DNA of 59,682 bases from Planctomyces sp. SH-PL62 (GTDB lineage Bacteria > Planctomycetota > Planctomycetia > Planctomycetales > Planctomycetaceae). The translations under genes and the position numbers were made by a program. Location: the NCBI GenBank assembly GCA_945893075.1, contig CAMDDX010000004.1:1-59682 (forward strand). Reading direction: 5' to 3'. Of this stretch, positions 29,346 through 41,064 are shown piece after piece. Position 1 is the stretch's first letter. Each line of letters opens with the position of its first letter. The notes under the pieces were generated by a model. The model ran no database searches and had not been told where the DNA came from. It saw only the letters and a program-made list of their open reading frames with translations.

Positions 29346-32300
29346 TTAAGCCAGAGGCTCGGGTGGCTTCTTCTTGGAGGCACGCTTGCGGGGCGTGAGT
29401 TGCAGCCATGAGTCGAGTTGTTTGCTGATGTCGTCCATGCTGACGACGCGCGGTGTGACGTTGAACTCGGCTTCGGCGGGGGAGTTGGCGGACGACGGGA
29501 AGTTGAGTCGCAGGACTTCCTTTTCGAGGTTCTGCATCCAGGCGGGAAGCTCGATTCCGGAGCCGGTGCTGTCGGCGAGGTAGGCGTCGATCTCGCGGCG
29601 CAGGCTGTCGAAGGACGGTGACTCGGCGCGTTGAGCTTGAGCGTCAGCGACCACTTGCGGGAGGTGCGCGAGCATCCGGTTCACGGCCAGCGGCTTGGTG
29701 AAATGCTCGTTGAGGCGGTCGCTGACGGCGGGGAGTCTCATGCCGTATTTGCGTTCGGCAGCGTTCAGGCGACGAAGATGTCCGGTGGCGGATTCGCGGG
29801 CGCGTTTCTCGAAACTGCGTTCCCAGGCGGCGACGGCTTCTTGCAGGTTTCCATGACAGAGGACTTGGTGGACCAGATTCAGCGGCGTGAAGTTCCAAGC
29901 ATCGCGGTCGTAGTCCGCTTCGACGCGCAGGAAGTCGAGCAGGAAGAAAAACTTCTCGCCATAGTCGGACTGAGTCGTGGTCGTATTGTATTCGAGGAAC
30001 CGGTCGAACTTGTCGACGACGGTCATGTAGATCAGTTCGAGCACATGCACGACGTGATCGGTTTCGATCGCGCCGCTGTCGAGAGCTTCCAGCAGCGGAC
30101 TGGGGCGCAGCGGGTCTTGTGACTCGGCGAGGAAATTCAAGAACCACGGGATGCCGTTGTGCAGGATCGCTCGCACGTTGCCGAGCGTCAGCATCTTGGC
30201 GTGGAACAGTTCGGCTCCGAACTTGGTGATGAACTCGCGGACTTCATCCCAGACGGCGTCGCGCTTCATGCTCTCGACGGCCGAGAGACGCATTGTCGCA
30301 CTGTGGCTGACCCATTCCTCGACGAACGGTTTCATCAGGCTGTGCAGCAGTTCGACCAGTTTTTCTTGCGGGAAGGTGCCTTCGTCCCAGGTCGCGGCCG
30401 AACGCAGCAACGCTTCGGCCGAGAAACGGACGGCCGTGCGGAACAGGCGGTCGAACTCGGTGACGGCCATCTCGCCGGGACGCGACGATTTCTCCATGCG
30501 GTGCGCGGTCCGCAGCAGATGCCACGTTTCTTTGAGCAGTCCGAATCGCGGAAGCTGCGTGAGCAGGAAGCGGATGTCCGATTGCAGCAGCCGCGCGGCG
30601 AGCACTTGCTTGGGATGACCGCCGACATCGAGCGGCACATACAAGAGCGGCTTGCGGGCGAGCATCGTCAGCAGACTGGGGAGCGTCGCTTTGACCTCGT
30701 CCACATCGCCGCGCAAGACTGCTCGATACAGCGCGGTCATGTGCAGGTCGTCGTTCGCGGCCTTGGATTTCTTGCGGGTGTCGCTGCCGGGCAGGAAGCA
30801 GCCGAGGCCACGTTCGCCGATTCGGCAGGCGAGCTGCGCGGCGATCACCGTCTGTACCATGTAGAGCTTCGTCTGCAATTGCAGATCGTATTCGACGTTC
30901 GAGTCGTGTTCGCCGGAGGGCGTGGCGATCTCGAAATCCCACAATGCTCCCATCAGCTTGCGGAGTCCGTGCTGCATCTCGCCGAGATGTTTAACCCAGC
31001 CGCTGATCACCGCCTGCGGGTCTTCGAGATCGGGCCGCCGAGCCTCTTTCGGATTGCGTTGCAGTCCGGCCGGCGGATTGCGCATCAAGCACGCGACCGC
31101 CATTTGCCACAACTGAGCCAGCGTGACCGAGAACTTCAGCCGCGGCTCCAGGGCCTTGCTGAGATATTCCATCTCGGTCGAGCCGGTGGCGGCACCGTCG
31201 TCCATCAACTCGCCGGAGACACCGTCGTCCGCACTGTCTTTGAACGAGACATCTTCATACGCATTGCGAAACGGGTTGTCTTCGTCGTCCTCGTCGTCCG
31301 GGTCGAGCAGTCCACCGTCATCGTCATCGAAGTCGCCGAGGTCATCGTCGAGCGTTTCTGGCTTCGGCTTCTTCTTTTTCTTGGGGCGATCATCGGCGAG
31401 TCCGTCGAGCACGGGGACTTCCCAGAACTCGCCGGCGTTGACTTCGAGGTACGCGAAAAACCGCCGGATCAGCGGCCACCGATCGGGCTGCGGCGAGCCG
31501 TCGGTCGGCTCGGCGGTGACTTGCGTCATCCATTCGGTCAGCAGCGCCGGGAGCGAGTACGAACCGGACTCGATGCCGACCTCTTCATTTTGGCTCAACC
31601 ATTGCATCAAGAGCGCCGTCGCGGCGACGTAGTCTTCTTTGTCGAGCAAGGCTTTGACGACGAGGGCATACGACTTCGCGGTCGTGAAGCGGTCGATGTG
31701 CCGCCGCCAAAAGCTGACGTCACCCGCCGCTTCGCCAGCCGCTCGCCATTCGGAGAGGACGTCGGCAACGTGCGTGGCCGACTCCCAACTCTCGCGGCCG
31801 GCGACGTGCGGCATGTCTTCGACAGTGACGCTCGCGAACTGATCCCAATACTCGGCGAACGTGCGGAAGCACTCGGACAACCGGCGTGTGAGTTCGCGAT
31901 CCCCCTGTGCGGCGGACTCACCCAAGGCTCGCGAATAGACCGAGAGGTACTGCTCGACGATCGACAGCAGTTCCTCCAATCGCTGGTCGGGGATGCTGTC
32001 CTCACGCGACGAGAACAACGGAAACAGTCCCTGAAAGCCGAGGATATTCCACGGATCGGGGAACGCTCCGCATTCGATGCCCCGTTTGAAATAGTCTTCG
32101 ATTTCCGCGATCAGCGACACCGCCGGCAGAAGCTGGCCGGAACTGAGATGCCGATGCGCGGCAGTCATCCGCCAATGCACTTCGCAGGCGAAGCGCGCGG
32201 CGACCGAGGGGATCACGGCCGCGGTTTCTCGCGCAGCCTGCGGCCGACCGAGCATCGCGTACAACCCCGCGAGATGCCGGTACTGAATTTGTCTCGCTCC

Positions 32301-33482
32301 ATAATTCGCGAGATACAAATTGAGCGACTGCCGCACATGTCCGAACGGCTGTTGCGTTTTCTTCGCGGCGGCCTTCAACCGTTGTCCGCGTTCGCCTTTC
32401 GCATCGTCCAGCAGGCGTTCGTAGAACGCATCGCGCTGTCGAGCGACACGCGGCAGCAGAGACGTCAGCGTAATCGTCGAGTCGTGTGTGTCCGGTCCCG
32501 AACCGCTGATCGCCGAGGCCATCAACATCGTACCGCACAGCACCGAGGCCGCGTCGAATAGCGATTCCTCCGGCGGCTGCTCGGTCTGCTCGGCCATCCA
32601 ATTCAGCAACGAGTCCAAAATGATCTTCCGCAAAATAAATCGGCGGAAGTTCCCTTTCGTGTCGATGACGTGCGGATCCCATTCGCCGAACATGTAGTTC
32701 GTGCGTTTGTAAACCGGATGATTGTGATCGTGAGCACGTACGTCGCAGGCGATCTCCTCCAAATTTCGCAGATCAAAAAAAGCGTTCTGACACAGGTTCG
32801 CCGGCACTCCCTGCATCAACTCCATCGTCTTGGTGATGAGTTCCTGATACGGCCCGCGCCCCGCACCGACTCCTTGAAAATAAATCGGAACCGGCCGGAA
32901 GCGTTCCTTCGGATACGGCTCCATCTTGCGTTCGTTTTCCAGAATCGCAACCGGGCGAAAGCCAATGAAGTCGTTAAGAGAGTCGAGTGCCCCGCTGACA
33001 ATCCGCTCGGTCTCTTCCCAAGGGGATCCTTGAGCCAGCACCGCCTCAAACAGTCGAGCGAGAAACAACGGCTGCTGGAAATCGGCGTCGCTGAGATGAA
33101 ACAGCAAATCTCCATGATGCTGCCGATACGCCGGCCAGAGATCATGAAACGTGAGCTTGAGAACGGCTCGCGCCTGCGCCGAATCTTTGAACGCCGCCGA
33201 AGTCGTTTCGAGTTCGCCGAGCCGCGCGAGCAGCGCCGCCTCAAACGAACCCCACGGATTCGGCCAACCCCATTCCGGATGACAGCGATTCAAGCGATCC
33301 TGAAATTTCACATCCGGCTTGCCGCCGGAGAAATTCAGATAGCCCAGAATGTCCTGAAACCCGCTGGCCAGCGCGGCTGTCGGGACATCTTTCGGGACAC
33401 TGGGAGCGACAGCGTTCGGCACACTCTCCGGCTCAGGCGGAGTTGACTCGGCGGCATCCCCGGTTGGCTGACTTCCCGACAT
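29346..33482 (-). CDS. Very large helical protein of unknown function
   Basis: About 1378 residues from the ATG at 33482 (a TTG two codons earlier is less likely). No signal peptide or membrane segment is seen. The sequence is mostly helical, reminiscent of TPR/HEAT-type repeats (many Leu/Ala-rich helices such as QIQYRHLAGLYAMLGRPQAA and SYALVVKALLDKEDYVAAT). Near residues 700-745 there is a Lys run (KKKKKPKP) followed by an Asp-rich stretch (DDDLGDFDDDDGG, DPDDEDDEDN). Specific blocks include HDHNHPVYKRTNYMFGEWDPHVIDTKGNFRRF at about 255-290. I do not recognise the family. It is monocistronic, convergent with DUF1501 and divergent from the HNH cassette. Confidence 0.85.
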   Translation of the reverse strand: MSGSQPTGDAAESTPPEPESVPNAVAPSVPKDVPTAALASGFQDILGYLNFSGGKPDVKFQDRLNRCHPEWGWPNPWGSFEAALLARLGELETTSAAFKDSAQARAVLKLTFHDLWPAYRQHHGDLLFHLSDADFQQPLFLARLFEAVLAQGSPWEETERIVSGALDSLNDFIGFRPVAILENERKMEPYPKERFRPVPIYFQGVGAGRGPYQELITKTMELMQGVPANLCQNAFFDLRNLEEIACDVRAHDHNHPVYKRTNYMFGEWDPHVIDTKGNFRRFILRKIILDSLLNWMAEQTEQPPEESLFDAASVLCGTMLMASAISGSGPDTHDSTITLTSLLPRVARQRDAFYERLLDDAKGERGQRLKAAAKKTQQPFGHVRQSLNLYLANYGARQIQYRHLAGLYAMLGRPQAARETAAVIPSVAARFACEVHWRMTAAHRHLSSGQLLPAVSLIAEIEDYFKRGIECGAFPDPWNILGFQGLFPLFSSREDSIPDQRLEELLSIVEQYLSVYSRALGESAAQGDRELTRRLSECFRTFAEYWDQFASVTVEDMPHVAGRESWESATHVADVLSEWRAAGEAAGDVSFWRRHIDRFTTAKSYALVVKALLDKEDYVAATALLMQWLSQNEEVGIESGSYSLPALLTEWMTQVTAEPTDGSPQPDRWPLIRRFFAYLEVNAGEFWEVPVLDGLADDRPKKKKKPKPETLDDDLGDFDDDDGGLLDPDDEDDEDNPFRNAYEDVSFKDSADDGVSGELMDDGAATGSTEMEYLSKALEPRLKFSVTLAQLWQMAVACLMRNPPAGLQRNPKEARRPDLEDPQAVISGWVKHLGEMQHGLRKLMGALWDFEIATPSGEHDSNVEYDLQLQTKLYMVQTVIAAQLACRIGERGLGCFLPGSDTRKKSKAANDDLHMTALYRAVLRGDVDEVKATLPSLLTMLARKPLLYVPLDVGGHPKQVLAARLLQSDIRFLLTQLPRFGLLKETWHLLRTAHRMEKSSRPGEMAVTEFDRLFRTAVRFSAEALLRSAATWDEGTFPQEKLVELLHSLMKPFVEEWVSHSATMRLSAVESMKRDAVWDEVREFITKFGAELFHAKMLTLGNVRAILHNGIPWFLNFLAESQDPLRPSPLLEALDSGAIETDHVVHVLELIYMTVVDKFDRFLEYNTTTTQSDYGEKFFFLLDFLRVEADYDRDAWNFTPLNLVHQVLCHGNLQEAVAAWERSFEKRARESATGHLRRLNAAERKYGMRLPAVSDRLNEHFTKPLAVNRMLAHLPQVVADAQAQRAESPSFDSLRREIDAYLADSTGSGIELPAWMQNLEKEVLRLNFPSSANSPAEAEFNVTPRVVSMDDISKQLDSWLQLTPRKRASKKKPPEPLA

Positions 33483-33661
33483 AAACAATGCAATTCCCGG
33501 CAGGCTCAGAAAAACTTTTCGGCGGCAGTTTCGCGAACGGTCGAAGGGTTGGGAAGGATCGCGACTTGATGCACCGAATGACTCTGAAAAGATCGTGCTT
33601 GGGATGGACTTTCGCGGCTGTTAGACTGCTCTCGTTTCCGAGGTATGGCATTTCAATCTCT

Positions 33662-36648: not shown

Positions 36649-37968
36649 ATGACGCAGGCAACAACCGCGTCGTCCTGGCAGGACGACGCTGAGGTCAGTG
36701 TGTGGAGCAAGCTGCAATCGTCGCCCATTATCTGGGGTGGCATCGCGACCGCGTTTTTCTACTTGCTGATTCCGTATTCGCCGCTGTGGAAGGCTGAGAT
36801 CACTCGGTACTTCGCCGGGCACTGGATCGAATACGTCACGAGCGGCCTGTCCTTCATTGGACTCGCGATCCTTGTCAAAAAGGCCATCCGGATCGCGACC
36901 GAATCGCAAGCCGCACGTTGGTCCGGCTGGACCGGTTCCGACGCGATGCCGCTGAACGATGTCGTCGCGACGGCGAAGCAGGTCGAGCGGAACGCTCAGT
37001 CTGCGCCGGACGCATGGCACTCAACACATATCGCTCGCCGCATTCGCGAGGTGTGCAGCTTCATCCTCGGCCGTCGATCGGCGGCGGGGCTTGAAGAGCA
37101 CCTGCGATATCTTGGCGAACTGGCTGCGGGCGATTTGCATTCGAGCTACTCGCTAGTGCGGACAGTGACGTGGGCAGTCCCGATCCTGGGCTTCTTGGGG
37201 ACGGTCGTGGGCATCACGGACGCGATCGCGCACCTCACGCCGGAACAAATGGAAGCCTCGCTCGACAGCGTCACCGCGGGCCTCGGCACGGCGTTCGATA
37301 CGACCGCGCTGTCGCTCGGTTGGTCGATGGTGATCGTCTTCACAACGCTCTTCATCGAACGCAGAGAGCAGGCACTGCTCACCGAAGTCGAAGAGTTCGG
37401 CACGCGACGACTCGCGACCCTCTTTGCCGACGGCGAACAACTCGGCACGCAGTTGCTCGCCGCTGAAGGAGAAGCTGCCGACCAACTGCTGCGCAAGACA
37501 GAGACGCTGATCAACTGGCAAACGTCGGCCTGGCAAGAATCGCTCGACGCACTGCGGCAACGTTGGGCGGTCACGCTGGGACAACAACAAACGCAGCTTG
37601 AGCAAGGACTGCAAACGGCGATGTCACAGTCATTGGCACAGCACGATCAACAGCTTGCCGAGGCTCGCACGGCTTTGCTTGGCGATGTTCAGCAACTTGC
37701 CGCCGGGATTCATCAAGCGGCTGAGACCTCACGAGACGGGCTGCAAGCGATGCTCGTCGCGACGCAGTCATTGACTGCGGAACTGCACTCGCAAGGCCAA
37801 CTCCTGTTGCAGCTCGTCGATCAAGAGGCGGGCCTGCAACGGTCGCAAGACGTGCTCACCGCCAACCTGCAAGCAGTCCGGCAATCGGCGACGTTCGAGG
37901 AAACCTTGCACGCGCTCAACGCGGCGGTGCATCTGCTGACGAACCGCGTGCAGTTGAGAGCAGCGTGA
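36649..37968 (+). CDS. MotA/TolQ/ExbB proton-channel family protein with long coiled tail
   Basis: 439 residues, longer than ExbB (about 240). Membrane segments: about 26-47, 62-80, 168-190 (VRTVTWAVPILGFLGTVVGITDAI, the hallmark GxxGTVxGI) and 212-235 (TAFDTTALSLGWSMVIVFTTLF). After TM4 comes a Gln/Ala/Leu-rich helical tail of about 200 residues (residues 240-439) that must lie in the cytoplasm. The channel family converts proton flow into movement of partner proteins. The next two genes encode ExbD-like single-span proteins, so these three make a stator-like complex. The long tail is like that of ZorA of the Zorya system, but no zorB, zorC or zorD gene is present. Confidence 0.87.
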   Translation: MTQATTASSWQDDAEVSVWSKLQSSPIIWGGIATAFFYLLIPYSPLWKAEITRYFAGHWIEYVTSGLSFIGLAILVKKAIRIATESQAARWSGWTGSDAMPLNDVVATAKQVERNAQSAPDAWHSTHIARRIREVCSFILGRRSAAGLEEHLRYLGELAAGDLHSSYSLVRTVTWAVPILGFLGTVVGITDAIAHLTPEQMEASLDSVTAGLGTAFDTTALSLGWSMVIVFTTLFIERREQALLTEVEEFGTRRLATLFADGEQLGTQLLAAEGEAADQLLRKTETLINWQTSAWQESLDALRQRWAVTLGQQQTQLEQGLQTAMSQSLAQHDQQLAEARTALLGDVQQLAAGIHQAAETSRDGLQAMLVATQSLTAELHSQGQLLLQLVDQEAGLQRSQDVLTANLQAVRQSATFEETLHALNAAVHLLTNRVQLRAA

Positions 37969-37993
37969 GTCGGGACCGCTGACGGTTTGAAAA

Positions 37994-38037
37994 AGTGAGA
38001 TAACGGCTATCGGCTTTCGGCCATCGGCTGTCGGCCA
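37994..38037. repeat. ATAACGGCTATCGGC-family repeat before the first ExbD-like gene
   Basis: GAGATAACGGCTATCGGC followed by TTTCGGCCATCGGCTGTCGGCC, close kin of 13365-13413 and 46063-46126. It takes up about half of the 91-bp gap between the ExbB-like and first ExbD-like gene. Confidence 0.65.
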
Positions 38038-38059
38038 AACACGGACCAGTGCCCCATCC

Positions 38060-40012
38060 ATGTCTCGACGACCAACCAATACCGCTGCGGGCGTTTCGCT
38101 CTTTCCGTTTCTCGCCGTGCTGGTTTGCACGATGGGTTCGCTGATCCTGTTGCTGCTGGTGACGACCAAACGGATTCGAGCGGCGGCGATCGAGAAGGCT
38201 CGACAGGCGGTCGTGCCGGAAGAGACGCCAGTTTCTGAAGCACCGCCAATCATCATCGCCGCCGAACCAGAACCGGAAGACGATCCGACGCCCGAATGGC
38301 AAACGCAGGTCGAGCAACTGACCGCCGAACGTGACCTCTTGCGCGGTCACCTTTCGCAGTCGAAGAGCAAGCTCGACTCGACGCAAGCGGCGATGCTGCG
38401 GACGAAGGTCAAAGTCGCCTCGGCGGCCGATCGGATCAAAGACATCCGCGAACAACAGGAACAGACCGCCGCCGAGCGGGAGCGACTGCAAGCCGAAATC
38501 GACTCGCTGCAAAGCGACCTGACCGATGCCGAACTTCGGCTCTCCAAAGCGGCCGAGCGACAGAAGACGGCGAAGAGCAAATTCGCGTTCCTGCCGTTCG
38601 ACGGCCGCACCGGAACGACCAAGCGGCCAGTCCTCATCGAATGCACTCAGGACTACATTCGGTTTCTGCCCGAAGACGTGCGGCTGTCACCGGCCGACCT
38701 CAACGGGTTCACGTCGGGGTTCAATCCGCTGCTGATCGCGTCGCGTGAGTTGATTCACTATTGGAAAGCCTACGAGCGGGTTCACGAACCGACGACCTCT
38801 CCCGCGAAAGACATCGACGCCTTCGAGACCGACTTGGCTGCGCTCAACGATAAAGAGCGTGAGCCGTATGTGCTGTTGTTGGTGAGGCCGAACGGAGCGG
38901 TCGCGTTTCACATCGCGAAGGGATTCCTGTCGCAGCTCAAAGTGCCGCACGGCTACGAACTCATCACGGACGACATGGAGATCGACTCGTCGAATCCCGA
39001 TCCCGATGCCAAACAGATCTGCCAAACGGCGGTCGCTCAAGTGATGGCCGAACGAGAGAAGGTTTTGGTGGCGCTGACTCGCAACCGCGAAGGGCAGCGA
39101 GATCAACTTCAGTTGGAACCGACCGCTCGGACGTTCGTGCCGAAAGAGGTGAGCGAACCGGCGAATGCCTTTGAACGCCCGAAATCTGGATCGCAGACGG
39201 TAACTCGGACGCCTACGTCCGAGCGCCCGGACGTAGGCGTCCGGGCTACAAACGGCGGACGAGACACACCGTCAGCCGGCTCAGAATCACGCGGTGCTCC
39301 GCAAACCGGGGGGCTGACGCTCCCCGCTCGCCAAAGCAGTGGGCTGACGGGACAGTCGCAGGTCGGTGATGAACCCCCTGAAGAGCCGTTGCCGAAAGCT
39401 CGGCAATACGAGAACGACGACACGAAGCCGTTCCCGCTGGCTCGCGGCGAGAAAACGAAATCATCTCCAGCGAAGTCCACTGACACGCCTTCGCCCTTCG
39501 GAAAACCCAAGACTCAGGCCGGAGCCGCACAACGCCCCAGCAATGATCCGCGTGCGGCGAACAATTCGTCGAATGGCAACAATTTCGCGAAGATGAAACG
39601 GCGCTATCTGATGCCGCGCGCCGGGATCGGACTCGAAAAGTCGATCCCGATTCGTATCGAATCAAATCGCGTGGTGATCGGCGGCGAGTTCGAAATTCCG
39701 GTCGATCCCAGCCTGCGCACCGAAAGCCTGATCGACCGCGTGCTGATGGCCATGGACCGCCTGCAATCTGGCTGGCCGAGCGCGGGCGCGGGATATCACT
39801 GGGTGCCAACGATCAAATACGAAGTCGTCCCCGGCGGCGAACAAGTGCATCAGCGTTTGAACTCCGGGCTGTTCGACCTCGGTCTCGTTTCGAGTGTCGA
39901 GTATTTGAACGCGGACCCCGTGGGACAGGATTCCAACCTGCCCGCCCAGAAAAAGTCATCGGCGAAGAAGCAGGTTGAAAACCTGCCCCGCGAAAGCGGA
40001 GGTGTGCGATGA
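38060..40012 (+). CDS. ExbD-like single-span protein, aspartate-less paralogue (A19)
   Basis: 650 residues. Residues 1-37 form MSRRP then FLAVLVCTMGSLILLLLVTT, a single span; Ala19 sits where ExbD has its essential Asp. A coiled stretch (about 75-170) leads to a soluble domain (about 175-345: RPVLIECTQDYIRFLPEDVRL, REPYVLLLVRPNGAVAFHIAKGFL). Residues about 355-510 are low complexity and hold repeat-derived peptides (TRTPTSERPDVGVRAT; GGLTLPARQSSG). A C-terminal domain (about 515-620: MPRAGIGLEKSIPIRIES, IDRVLMAMDRLQSGWPSAGAGYHW) ends the protein before KQVENLPRES. N-terminus aligns without gaps with the next gene product. It overlaps that gene by 4 bases (ATGA). Confidence 0.82.
   Translation: MSRRPTNTAAGVSLFPFLAVLVCTMGSLILLLLVTTKRIRAAAIEKARQAVVPEETPVSEAPPIIIAAEPEPEDDPTPEWQTQVEQLTAERDLLRGHLSQSKSKLDSTQAAMLRTKVKVASAADRIKDIREQQEQTAAERERLQAEIDSLQSDLTDAELRLSKAAERQKTAKSKFAFLPFDGRTGTTKRPVLIECTQDYIRFLPEDVRLSPADLNGFTSGFNPLLIASRELIHYWKAYERVHEPTTSPAKDIDAFETDLAALNDKEREPYVLLLVRPNGAVAFHIAKGFLSQLKVPHGYELITDDMEIDSSNPDPDAKQICQTAVAQVMAEREKVLVALTRNREGQRDQLQLEPTARTFVPKEVSEPANAFERPKSGSQTVTRTPTSERPDVGVRATNGGRDTPSAGSESRGAPQTGGLTLPARQSSGLTGQSQVGDEPPEEPLPKARQYENDDTKPFPLARGEKTKSSPAKSTDTPSPFGKPKTQAGAAQRPSNDPRAANNSSNGNNFAKMKRRYLMPRAGIGLEKSIPIRIESNRVVIGGEFEIPVDPSLRTESLIDRVLMAMDRLQSGWPSAGAGYHWVPTIKYEVVPGGEQVHQRLNSGLFDLGLVSSVEYLNADPVGQDSNLPAQKKSSAKKQVENLPRESGGVR
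39204..39245. repeat. 20-bp inverted repeat inside the ExbD-like gene
   Basis: Arms 39204-39223 and 39226-39245 pair at 18 of 20 (core GGACGCCTACGTCC). In frame it encodes RTPTSERPDVGVRAT. Loop 2 bases. Confidence 0.8.
39970..39989. repeat. GCAGGTTGAAAACCTGCCCC word at the end of the ExbD-like gene
   Basis: Shares 19 bases with the reverse complement of 17264-17284. Encodes QVENLP in frame, as in the AddB-like gene. The preceding 39925-39955 (GGACAGGATTCCAACCTGCCC) is another word of the same kind. Confidence 0.7.
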
Positions 40013-41064
40013 GCCGTCGGCCGCCTCCGGCAGAACAACAATTTGGTTCTGACTCATTTCTCGATGTCGTCGCCAACGTGGTCGGCATTCTCATCATCCT
40101 GATGGTGCTGGCCGGCGTGCGCGCCGGGAAAGCGCCGGTGAAACTGACCAACGATCCTCCACCAGTCGCAGTGGCATCACCTCTTCCCATCGTCACTGCG
40201 TCGGCATCCGCCGAAGACCAGGAACAAGCCTCGGCTCGGCGGCGTGAATTGGCCGGACTGCAATTGCAGTCCGACGAACTGCAAAGTGAACTCGATCGCC
40301 TGCGCAGCGCGGCGGGTGAGCACGAGACAAAGCTCAGCGAACTCCAATCGCAAGACGCCGTGAATCGCAATCGCGCCGCTGCGCTCGGTTCAAATCTCGA
40401 AGGGCAATTGGCTGAACTCCGGACCAACCAACAGCAGACGCAAGAACTATTGGCCGCCGCACAGGCCGTGCGGATTCGATTGAAGAAAAAGGCTGCCGAG
40501 GCCGCTGCCGCCGAGAAGCAACCCAACCGCGTCGAACAGTTGCAGCATTACATCACGCCGGTCAGCCGAGTCATCACCGAGAACGAAACCGAGCTGCACT
40601 TCCGCTGCCTCGGCGCAGCGGTCACGACGGTGCCGATCGACCAACTTGTCGAACGCATGAAAGCTCAGATGGAACGGCAGCGCGAAGTCATCCTGCGTCT
40701 GAAAAAGTATTCCGGTTCGGTTGGCCCGGTGCGCGGCTGGAACCTGAATTACCTCATCGAAACACAACAACATCTCGGTCTGGTCCGAGCCAGCGTGTCG
40801 CAGTTTGAACTCATCCCCGAATCCGACCTCGACGCCGAACGGGCCGAAGTCGCCTTGCGGCCGGACTCCGTGTTCCGCAACGAACTCCGCAAAGCCGAGC
40901 CGGGGAGCACGATCACCTTCTGGGTCTATCCCGACAGTTTTGTGTTGTTTCGGAAGCTGCAAGCGCTCGCTCACCGCGAGGGCTTCACCGTCGCCGCCCG
41001 GCCGCTTCCGGAAGGGACGCCAATCATGGGCTCACCGCACGGCAGCCGATCCGCAGCGCAGTGA
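40009..41064 (+). CDS. ExbD-like single-span protein with conserved aspartate (D19)
   Basis: 351 residues. Start ATG overlaps the stop of the previous gene (ATGA). MSRRP, then FLDVVANVVGILIILMVLAG: Asp19 before a hydrophobic span corresponds to the FIDV motif of ExbD, whose Asp carries the protons. After the span come a linker, a coiled coil (about 65-160: LQLQSDELQSELDRLRSAAGEHE) and a soluble domain (about 165-335: EQLQHYITPVSRVITENETELHFRCLG, RGWNLNYLIETQQHLG, STITFWVYPDSFVLFRKLQALAHREGF). There is no OmpA-type peptidoglycan-binding motif. It should pair with the Ala19 paralogue in the ExbB-like channel; inference. Confidence 0.85.
   Translation: MSRRPPPAEQQFGSDSFLDVVANVVGILIILMVLAGVRAGKAPVKLTNDPPPVAVASPLPIVTASASAEDQEQASARRRELAGLQLQSDELQSELDRLRSAAGEHETKLSELQSQDAVNRNRAAALGSNLEGQLAELRTNQQQTQELLAAAQAVRIRLKKKAAEAAAAEKQPNRVEQLQHYITPVSRVITENETELHFRCLGAAVTTVPIDQLVERMKAQMERQREVILRLKKYSGSVGPVRGWNLNYLIETQQHLGLVRASVSQFELIPESDLDAERAEVALRPDSVFRNELRKAEPGSTITFWVYPDSFVLFRKLQALAHREGFTVAARPLPEGTPIMGSPHGSRSAAQ

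Follow-up and report, generated by a model that had tools for sequence, protein, structure and literature searches.

A three-gene cassette in a planctomycete genome raises the question of how a motor of the MotA/ExbB type would be built, and how it would run, if one of its two axle proteins lacked the ion-carrying acid. The window, by which we mean the whole stretch of 59,682 nucleotides analysed (positions 1 to 59,682 of contig CAMDDX010000004.1, assembly GCA_945893075.1, from Planctomyces sp. SH-PL62), carries the cassette on its forward strand. Gene A (36649..37968) encodes a MotA/TolQ/ExbB-type channel of 439 amino acids (aa), assigned from the list of open reading frames (ORFs), Pfam, alignment and motif counts. 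Gene B (38060..40012; 650 aa) and gene C (40009..41064; 351 aa) encode ExbD-like, single-span proteins, assigned from ORFs, alignment and AlphaFold models, with Foldseek in addition for B. The plus-strand ORFs bear out the preliminary description of this DNA as holding three consecutive genes, the reading frames of B and C sharing four bases. It was also right about the N-termini: B (MSRRPTNTAAGVSLFPFLAVLVCTMG) and C (MSRRPPPAEQQFGSDSFLDVVANVVG) have in common an initial MSRRP and Gly26, and differ at residue 19, the site of the ion-carrying Asp, where B has Ala (codon 38114..38116, plus strand) and C has Asp (codon 40063..40065, plus strand), the residue found there in every relative read.

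Descriptions of known 5:2 motors generally give the axle two identical chains, and with them two ion-binding acids. In the established mechanism of MotA/ExbB motors (PMC9389320), two axle helices stand in the pentamer and the Asp of each takes ions in turn, ten per revolution. For the present cassette we favour, with moderate confidence, an A5-B-C ion motor whose stoichiometry and function we infer, and whose axle would have one ion-binding Asp, or two in many lineages with a channel of a second type (A', described below). In this model, an inner-membrane motor of the MotA/ExbB 5:2 type would hold a B-C heterodimer as its axle inside an A pentamer. Asp19 of C would carry the ion and B would keep the helix with a small, non-ionisable residue, leaving the axle with a single carboxylate where two are usual. 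Provided that the standard 5:2 mechanism applies, a turn would then take about five ions and five steps of 72 degrees rather than ten of 36 degrees, and the periplasmic domains of B and C would pass force to a partner in the envelope. The presence of B and C in one complex, the rotation, the step size and the force output are all predictions.

Gene A is a member of the channel family, matching the Pfam profile MotA_ExbB (PF01618) with an E-value of 9.9e-11 and 41.9 bits, above the cut-off of 22.9. Its pore motifs are GFLGTVVGIT in the third span and AFDTT, which contains Asp217, in the fourth, and beyond them runs a long tail that ends in a conserved stretch (ETLHALNAAVHLLTNR...RAA). Among the 74 canonical channels compared, 72 were readable; all 72 have Gly where A' has His, and 69 keep the fourth-span Asp, with Asn, Gly or Ala in its place in the other three. 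The GTV and Thr-Thr pore motifs are present in nearly all A and A' channels read.

In the AlphaFold models the first helix takes up residues 15-49 of B and 15-38 of C. Near residue 19 lies the site motif FLxV (FLAV in B, FLDV in C), and positions 17, 18, 19, 26, 28 and 31 hardly vary among B proteins or among C proteins, the helix of B keeping the axle-like pattern of F17, L18, G26, L28 and L31. In aligned relatives with a canonical A, residue 19 of B is Ala in 70 of 71 rows and Thr in one. It is about as conserved as Pro16, Phe17, Leu18, Val20 and Gly26, while positions 22, 24, 27 and 30 are variable, which argues that the site is constrained and not decaying. Separately, an Arg lies within the membrane helix of C (GIIxRLILV) in L022, L028, L156 and L160.

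The cassette is widespread in its class. At E <= 0.001 a profile of C finds 338 of the class's 397 genomes and, among the 339 of good quality, 295; these counts include weak matches, some perhaps to a sister system. Among named genomes, a single scan yielded 21 loci, every one planctomycete-titled. Three loci (L009, L011 and L013) are titled Candidatus Kuenenia stuttgartiensis; their cassette proteins group with those of the window, and the titles look wrong. The residue survey covers 114 distinct loci (121 minus seven duplicates), which are loci and not genomes and include some close species. At site 19, C has Asp in all 105 loci read, those unread being L020, L029, L091 and L092 together with L082-L086, in which C is unlinked. 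B was likewise read in 105 loci (102 by script, and L022, L028 and L156 by eye; L020, L029, L091, L092, L109, L119, L135, L146 and L160 unread) and has Ala in 78, Ser in 14, Asp in 12 and Thr in one. All three genes were found in 93 loci, in one direction throughout, in the order ABC in 87 and BCA in six, and B and C adjoin in most relatives in which both are readable.

The preliminary description proposed one active and one inactive subunit, a reading that the results support in part, and named a failure of the genes to be conserved together, or loss of the membrane span from the Ala variant in relatives, as findings that would speak against it. Neither is seen: the genes are conserved together throughout the class, and the B proteins read keep a membrane segment around site 19. 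The Asp/Ala pair itself is kept as the majority state but is not universal. Asp does occur in some B homologues, members of the window's genus among them, as had been foreseen as a sign that Ala is a local loss; Ala is nevertheless the rule, and with that majority we reject a local loss.

The 14 B-Ser loci all belong to a sister paralogue system (L079-L090, L093 and L094) with a shorter B, Ser occupying the site in 14 of 14. Its C has Asp in nine linked cases, and in one genus, represented by five genomes, C is unlinked from A-B yet present, with Asp in all five. By eye, several sister-system channels begin with a CxxC stretch. Four of the 12 B-Asp loci (L095-L098) are distant three-gene relatives in which B reads FxFQD and C reads LLLDT or FLDA, giving Asp in both partners; their channels read AFITT, AFDTT, AFETT and AFETT, and there is no A'. 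The Asp/Asp state of these loci may be ancestral, the tree being unrooted. That the cassette is a structural or signalling assembly derived from an ion motor, and no longer a motor itself, strikes us as highly unlikely, given the GTV and Thr-Thr motifs in nearly all channels read and the invariant Asp of C in the loci read, even though neither B nor C reaches the cut-off of a curated family and the literature searched holds no phenotype.

Closer to the window, six species (L010-L015) have Asp in B, four of them of its own genus (L012-L015, that is G638, G664, G513 and G456), so both states of the site occur within that genus. The gene order is B-C-A' in all six, and where the upstream genes are listed (L011-L014) the large upstream gene and a transporter gene are in place, A is gone and A' follows C. 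A' is only 27-28% identical to the A of the window, whereas C is 71-76% identical, and in a tree eleven A' sequences lie on one side of a fully supported branch. The two channels differ in the third span, where A' has His (GTVxHFG) and A has Gly (GTVxGIT), and in the fourth, where A' has Asn (AFNTT) and A has Asp (AFDTT); the A' of L010 matches PF01618 with 35.8 bits. Among the 397 genomes of the class, 29 A' channels are set apart by a score gap (at least 500 bits against at most 292), with third-span His in 28 and Tyr in one, and fourth-span Asn in all 29.

Different combinations of channel and B residue occur among these genomes, those of G445, G468, G634 and G640 being intermediates. A' accompanies an Asp in B in the g1 relatives and in G563, G375, G669, G645, G474, G644, G662, G383 and G451, and a Glu in G533. 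A' is the only channel, with Ala in B, in G425, G453, G459, G528, G483, G462 and G409. Both channels are found with intact pore motifs and Ala in B in G445 and G468, and G634 has A' next to a canonical A that lost its Thr-Thr in its genome (AFDPV; L257), again with Ala in B. G640 has A', a canonical-type A with ruined pore motifs (GLVLGF/AFAPL; L243) and Asp in B. G303 has A', an A-like gene adjoining B whose pore motif was not found by pattern, and Ala in B, and G603, a genome 69% complete, has both channels and Ala in B. The B-type protein of G551 (L244 2228-5224), which we counted as Asp, has a membrane segment like that of C, FGSDSFLD, and looks like the product of a span swap. Pro16 of B, present in 71 of 71 canonical rows, is found in 10 of 18 acidic rows (G640 included; acidic rows read by eye).

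Residue 19 of B was compared with channel type on a 102-row tree of C. Of these rows 74 have a canonical A (L130 and L156 among them with the pore motif unread), 25 have A' only and three have both channels, G634 included. The tree leaves out the Ser-type loci, L095-L098, loci with B or C unread, G603, G640, G303 (from which no C was recovered), and L016 and L023 (Ala in B, no channel gene on the contig). B is acidic in none of the 74 canonical rows (73 Ala, one Thr) and in 17 of the 25 A'-only rows (16 Asp and one Glu, against seven Ala and one Ser), and has Ala in all three rows with both channels. Within the main lineage, then, an acid in B is seen only with a replaced channel gene. Supported branches require at least 10 changes of channel and at least six of acidity, gains or losses (14 and nine on the best tree). 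In independent pairs that differ in channel, acidity differs in the same direction in 5.8 on average, in the opposite direction in 0.0 and not at all in 4.2. This covariation supports a B helix lying in the channel pore and is the best evidence here for that predicted position. A has been replaced by A' in several lineages, many of which have an acid in B, and in our model these would have a two-acid axle; from the combinations listed above we infer that the channel was replaced first and that the acid followed.

Several points weigh against placing B in the axle of such a motor. Eight A'-only rows have no acid in B, which makes the coupling one-sided, and the acid in B of L095-L098, present despite the lack of A', limits any strict rule. 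The sign test on independent pairs gives a median p of 0.03 (range 0.03-0.06) and draws on about six informative pairs. Whole-genome searching showed canonical A to be missing from the A'-only G genomes, a coverage that takes in neither L010 and L011 nor, with respect to A', the named canonical-A loci. The pairing of B and C in one pentamer is drawn from gene linkage and covariation. When profiles of ten ordinary ExbD proteins of the window's genome were compared with the alignments of B and C, the probabilities were 0.5% and 0.2%, and a fold search with the model of C gave no meaningful match, perhaps owing to its long coiled coil.

It could also be that one Asp is enough for the motor and that the second has simply decayed, the Asp/Ala pair being a product of drift. 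The two acids of L095-L098, possibly ancestral, and the occurrence of both states within the window's genus would fit such a neutral history. Drift should, however, mix residues, and 73 of the 74 canonical-A rows keep Ala, although the end branches of the C tree have a median length of 0.49 changes per column; in addition, the acids of the main lineage are confined to A' backgrounds. We consider a neutral leftover very unlikely.

A different reading of the same covariation is that charge has been relocated. Here the ring of channel Asp217 residues (AFDTT) would stand in for the Asp missing from B, the Asn of A' would remove that ring, and an acid in B would compensate; the asymmetry would then be a moved charge and not a halving of ion sites. 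The distribution of the residues invites this idea, with Asp217 in 69 of 72 canonical channels and Asn in 29 of 29 A', and main-lineage acid in B only where A' is present. The eight A'-only rows without acid in B do not follow it, however, nor do the three canonical channels of 72 that lack the Asp and still have Ala or Thr in B. Acid is present in both B and the channel in three of the four distant loci (L095-L098), and the channels of the Ser-type loci L087 and L090 have Asn while B still has Ser. We regard charge relocation as somewhat unlikely. In its strict form, the rule that acid in B needs loss of the channel Asp is contradicted by L095-L098 and by the A' rows with Ala.

As for the soluble parts of B and C, the model of B has a mean predicted local distance difference test (pLDDT) score of 63 and shows a coiled coil and two mixed alpha/beta domains at about residues 191-301 and 523-615, with a low-confidence linker at about 349-507. 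Foldseek matched it to the ExbD structures 8vgd_B (probability 0.98, TMt 0.71, E-value only 0.07) and 8p9r_A (probability 0.87, E-value 0.36). With an E-value of 0.07 and this mean pLDDT, the first match hints at an ExbD-type periplasmic domain in B, and the strand and helix order of ExbD/TolR fits the second domain of B, the first less clearly. The model of C (mean pLDDT 78) has a coiled coil at 68-170 and a folded C-terminal domain at about 187-345. The absence of OmpA-type motifs from the large soluble domains, as first described, stands, in that Pfam finds no OmpA-like peptidoglycan-binding domain in B or C; to call the output unknown may go too far in the case of B, in view of its weak ExbD fold match. 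Neither protein has a match above cut-off in Pfam or NCBIfam, the weak matches being mostly to coiled-coil families, and PF02472 (ExbD/TolR) does not match either at E <= 1. Membership of B and C in PF02472 is therefore unsupported, by Pfam match or by any profile link to ordinary ExbD.

B and C do resemble each other. The profile of B finds C and that of C finds B, and a comparison of the two gives 98% probability across 205 columns covering the span and the coiled coil. They look like old paralogues, with the proviso that coiled coils inflate such profile scores. If so, B might be an old duplicate of C serving as a separate accessory membrane protein outside the channel, next to an ordinary A5C2 motor with a homodimeric axle. 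The large domains of B's own leave room for this arrangement, as do the cases in which B-C is unlinked from the channel gene and the genus in which the sister C is unlinked from A-B. On the other side are the axle-like pattern in the helix of B and the shift of residue 19, along several independent branches, with the type of channel; such a shift would be difficult to account for without contact between B and the channel, and we find an accessory B improbable.

Ordinary ExbD proteins of the window's genome offer a comparison for the B-C axle that we prefer. Of 16 matches, 14 were read (the two on contig C475 were not), and all 14 have Asp; the six tandem pairs read are Asp/Asp in every case. 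Among the pairs read in this genome, the non-acidic partner is thus confined to the cassette. In the loci from the same genome (L001-L008), the ordinary ExbD genes are mostly tandem pairs that adjoin ExbB genes.

Set beside ExbB-ExbD and TolQ-TolR, the cassette shares the channel family, a single-span partner and an Asp in a short hydrophobic motif, and by fold the ExbD periplasmic domain resembles a predicted domain of B, with a weak E-value. It differs in its long channel tail, its coiled coils, its two unlike partners, one of them without Asp, and the absence of PF02472. The AglRQS gliding motor of Myxococcus xanthus has, like the cassette, two different TolR/ExbD-like genes behind a single gene of MotA/TolQ type (PMC3169522). 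There AglQ and AglS match PF02472, which B and C do not, and both carry a mid-membrane Asp according to PMC9389320, in contrast to B; the same paper states that it is unknown whether they form hetero- or homodimers. The window therefore has the gene number of AglRQS without its second Asp, and is not AglRQS-like.

Heterologous axle pairs have also been proposed in a paper on TPH-vWA motors and on the vWA force-transducer clusters found in the PVC group (Mol Biol Evol 2025, PMC12204202). For TPH-vWA proteins, the section of that paper devoted to them gives each monomer one Asp of a conserved pair, and it holds no Asp/Ala axle; a Pfam search detected no vWA domain in B or C. The ZorAB proteins of Zorya likewise combine a MotA-like channel with a single-span partner. 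The ZorA channel has a long tail, and Zorya is a patchily distributed defence system, unlike the cassette, which occurs in most genomes of the class. A matches the ZorA profile weakly (1.7e-5) and neither B nor C matches ZorB; on these grounds we rejected a defence function of the Zorya kind. ZorAB is reported as a 5:2 complex (PMC11890865).

Upstream of the cassette, on the minus strand, lies a divergent gene (29346..33488) for a 1380-aa protein of unknown family, identified by locus comparison and without a Pfam match at E <= 0.1. Counting the window, 25 loci keep it out of 111 (neighbours were counted over 111 loci, not 114), always upstream and on the opposite strand, and also at loci without A. 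We regard it as a candidate partner of the motor. The protein carries the motif LGYLNFSGG and has relatives at L108 7622-11680 and L129 2431-6402.

In the open-access literature searched we found no description of an Asp/Ala axle, of a conserved non-acidic partner, or of an acid in such a partner tied to replacement of the channel. The main text of a paper on essential genes of Planctopirus limnophila (PMC10632474) does not contain the terms TolQ, ExbD, MotA, biopolymer or proton channel. A bolder reading, to which we give less than even odds, is a naturally asymmetric A5-B-C motor with five ion steps per turn instead of ten. Residue 19 of B would have gained or lost its acid at least six times, in the main lineage becoming acidic only after replacement of the channel subunit, and the type of channel and the number of ion sites together would form a convertible gear. 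Pairs of close relatives from this family would offer a test of the number of ion sites that a rotary motor requires, and the same pairs would also offer a test of which channel changes are required when a second ion site is added.
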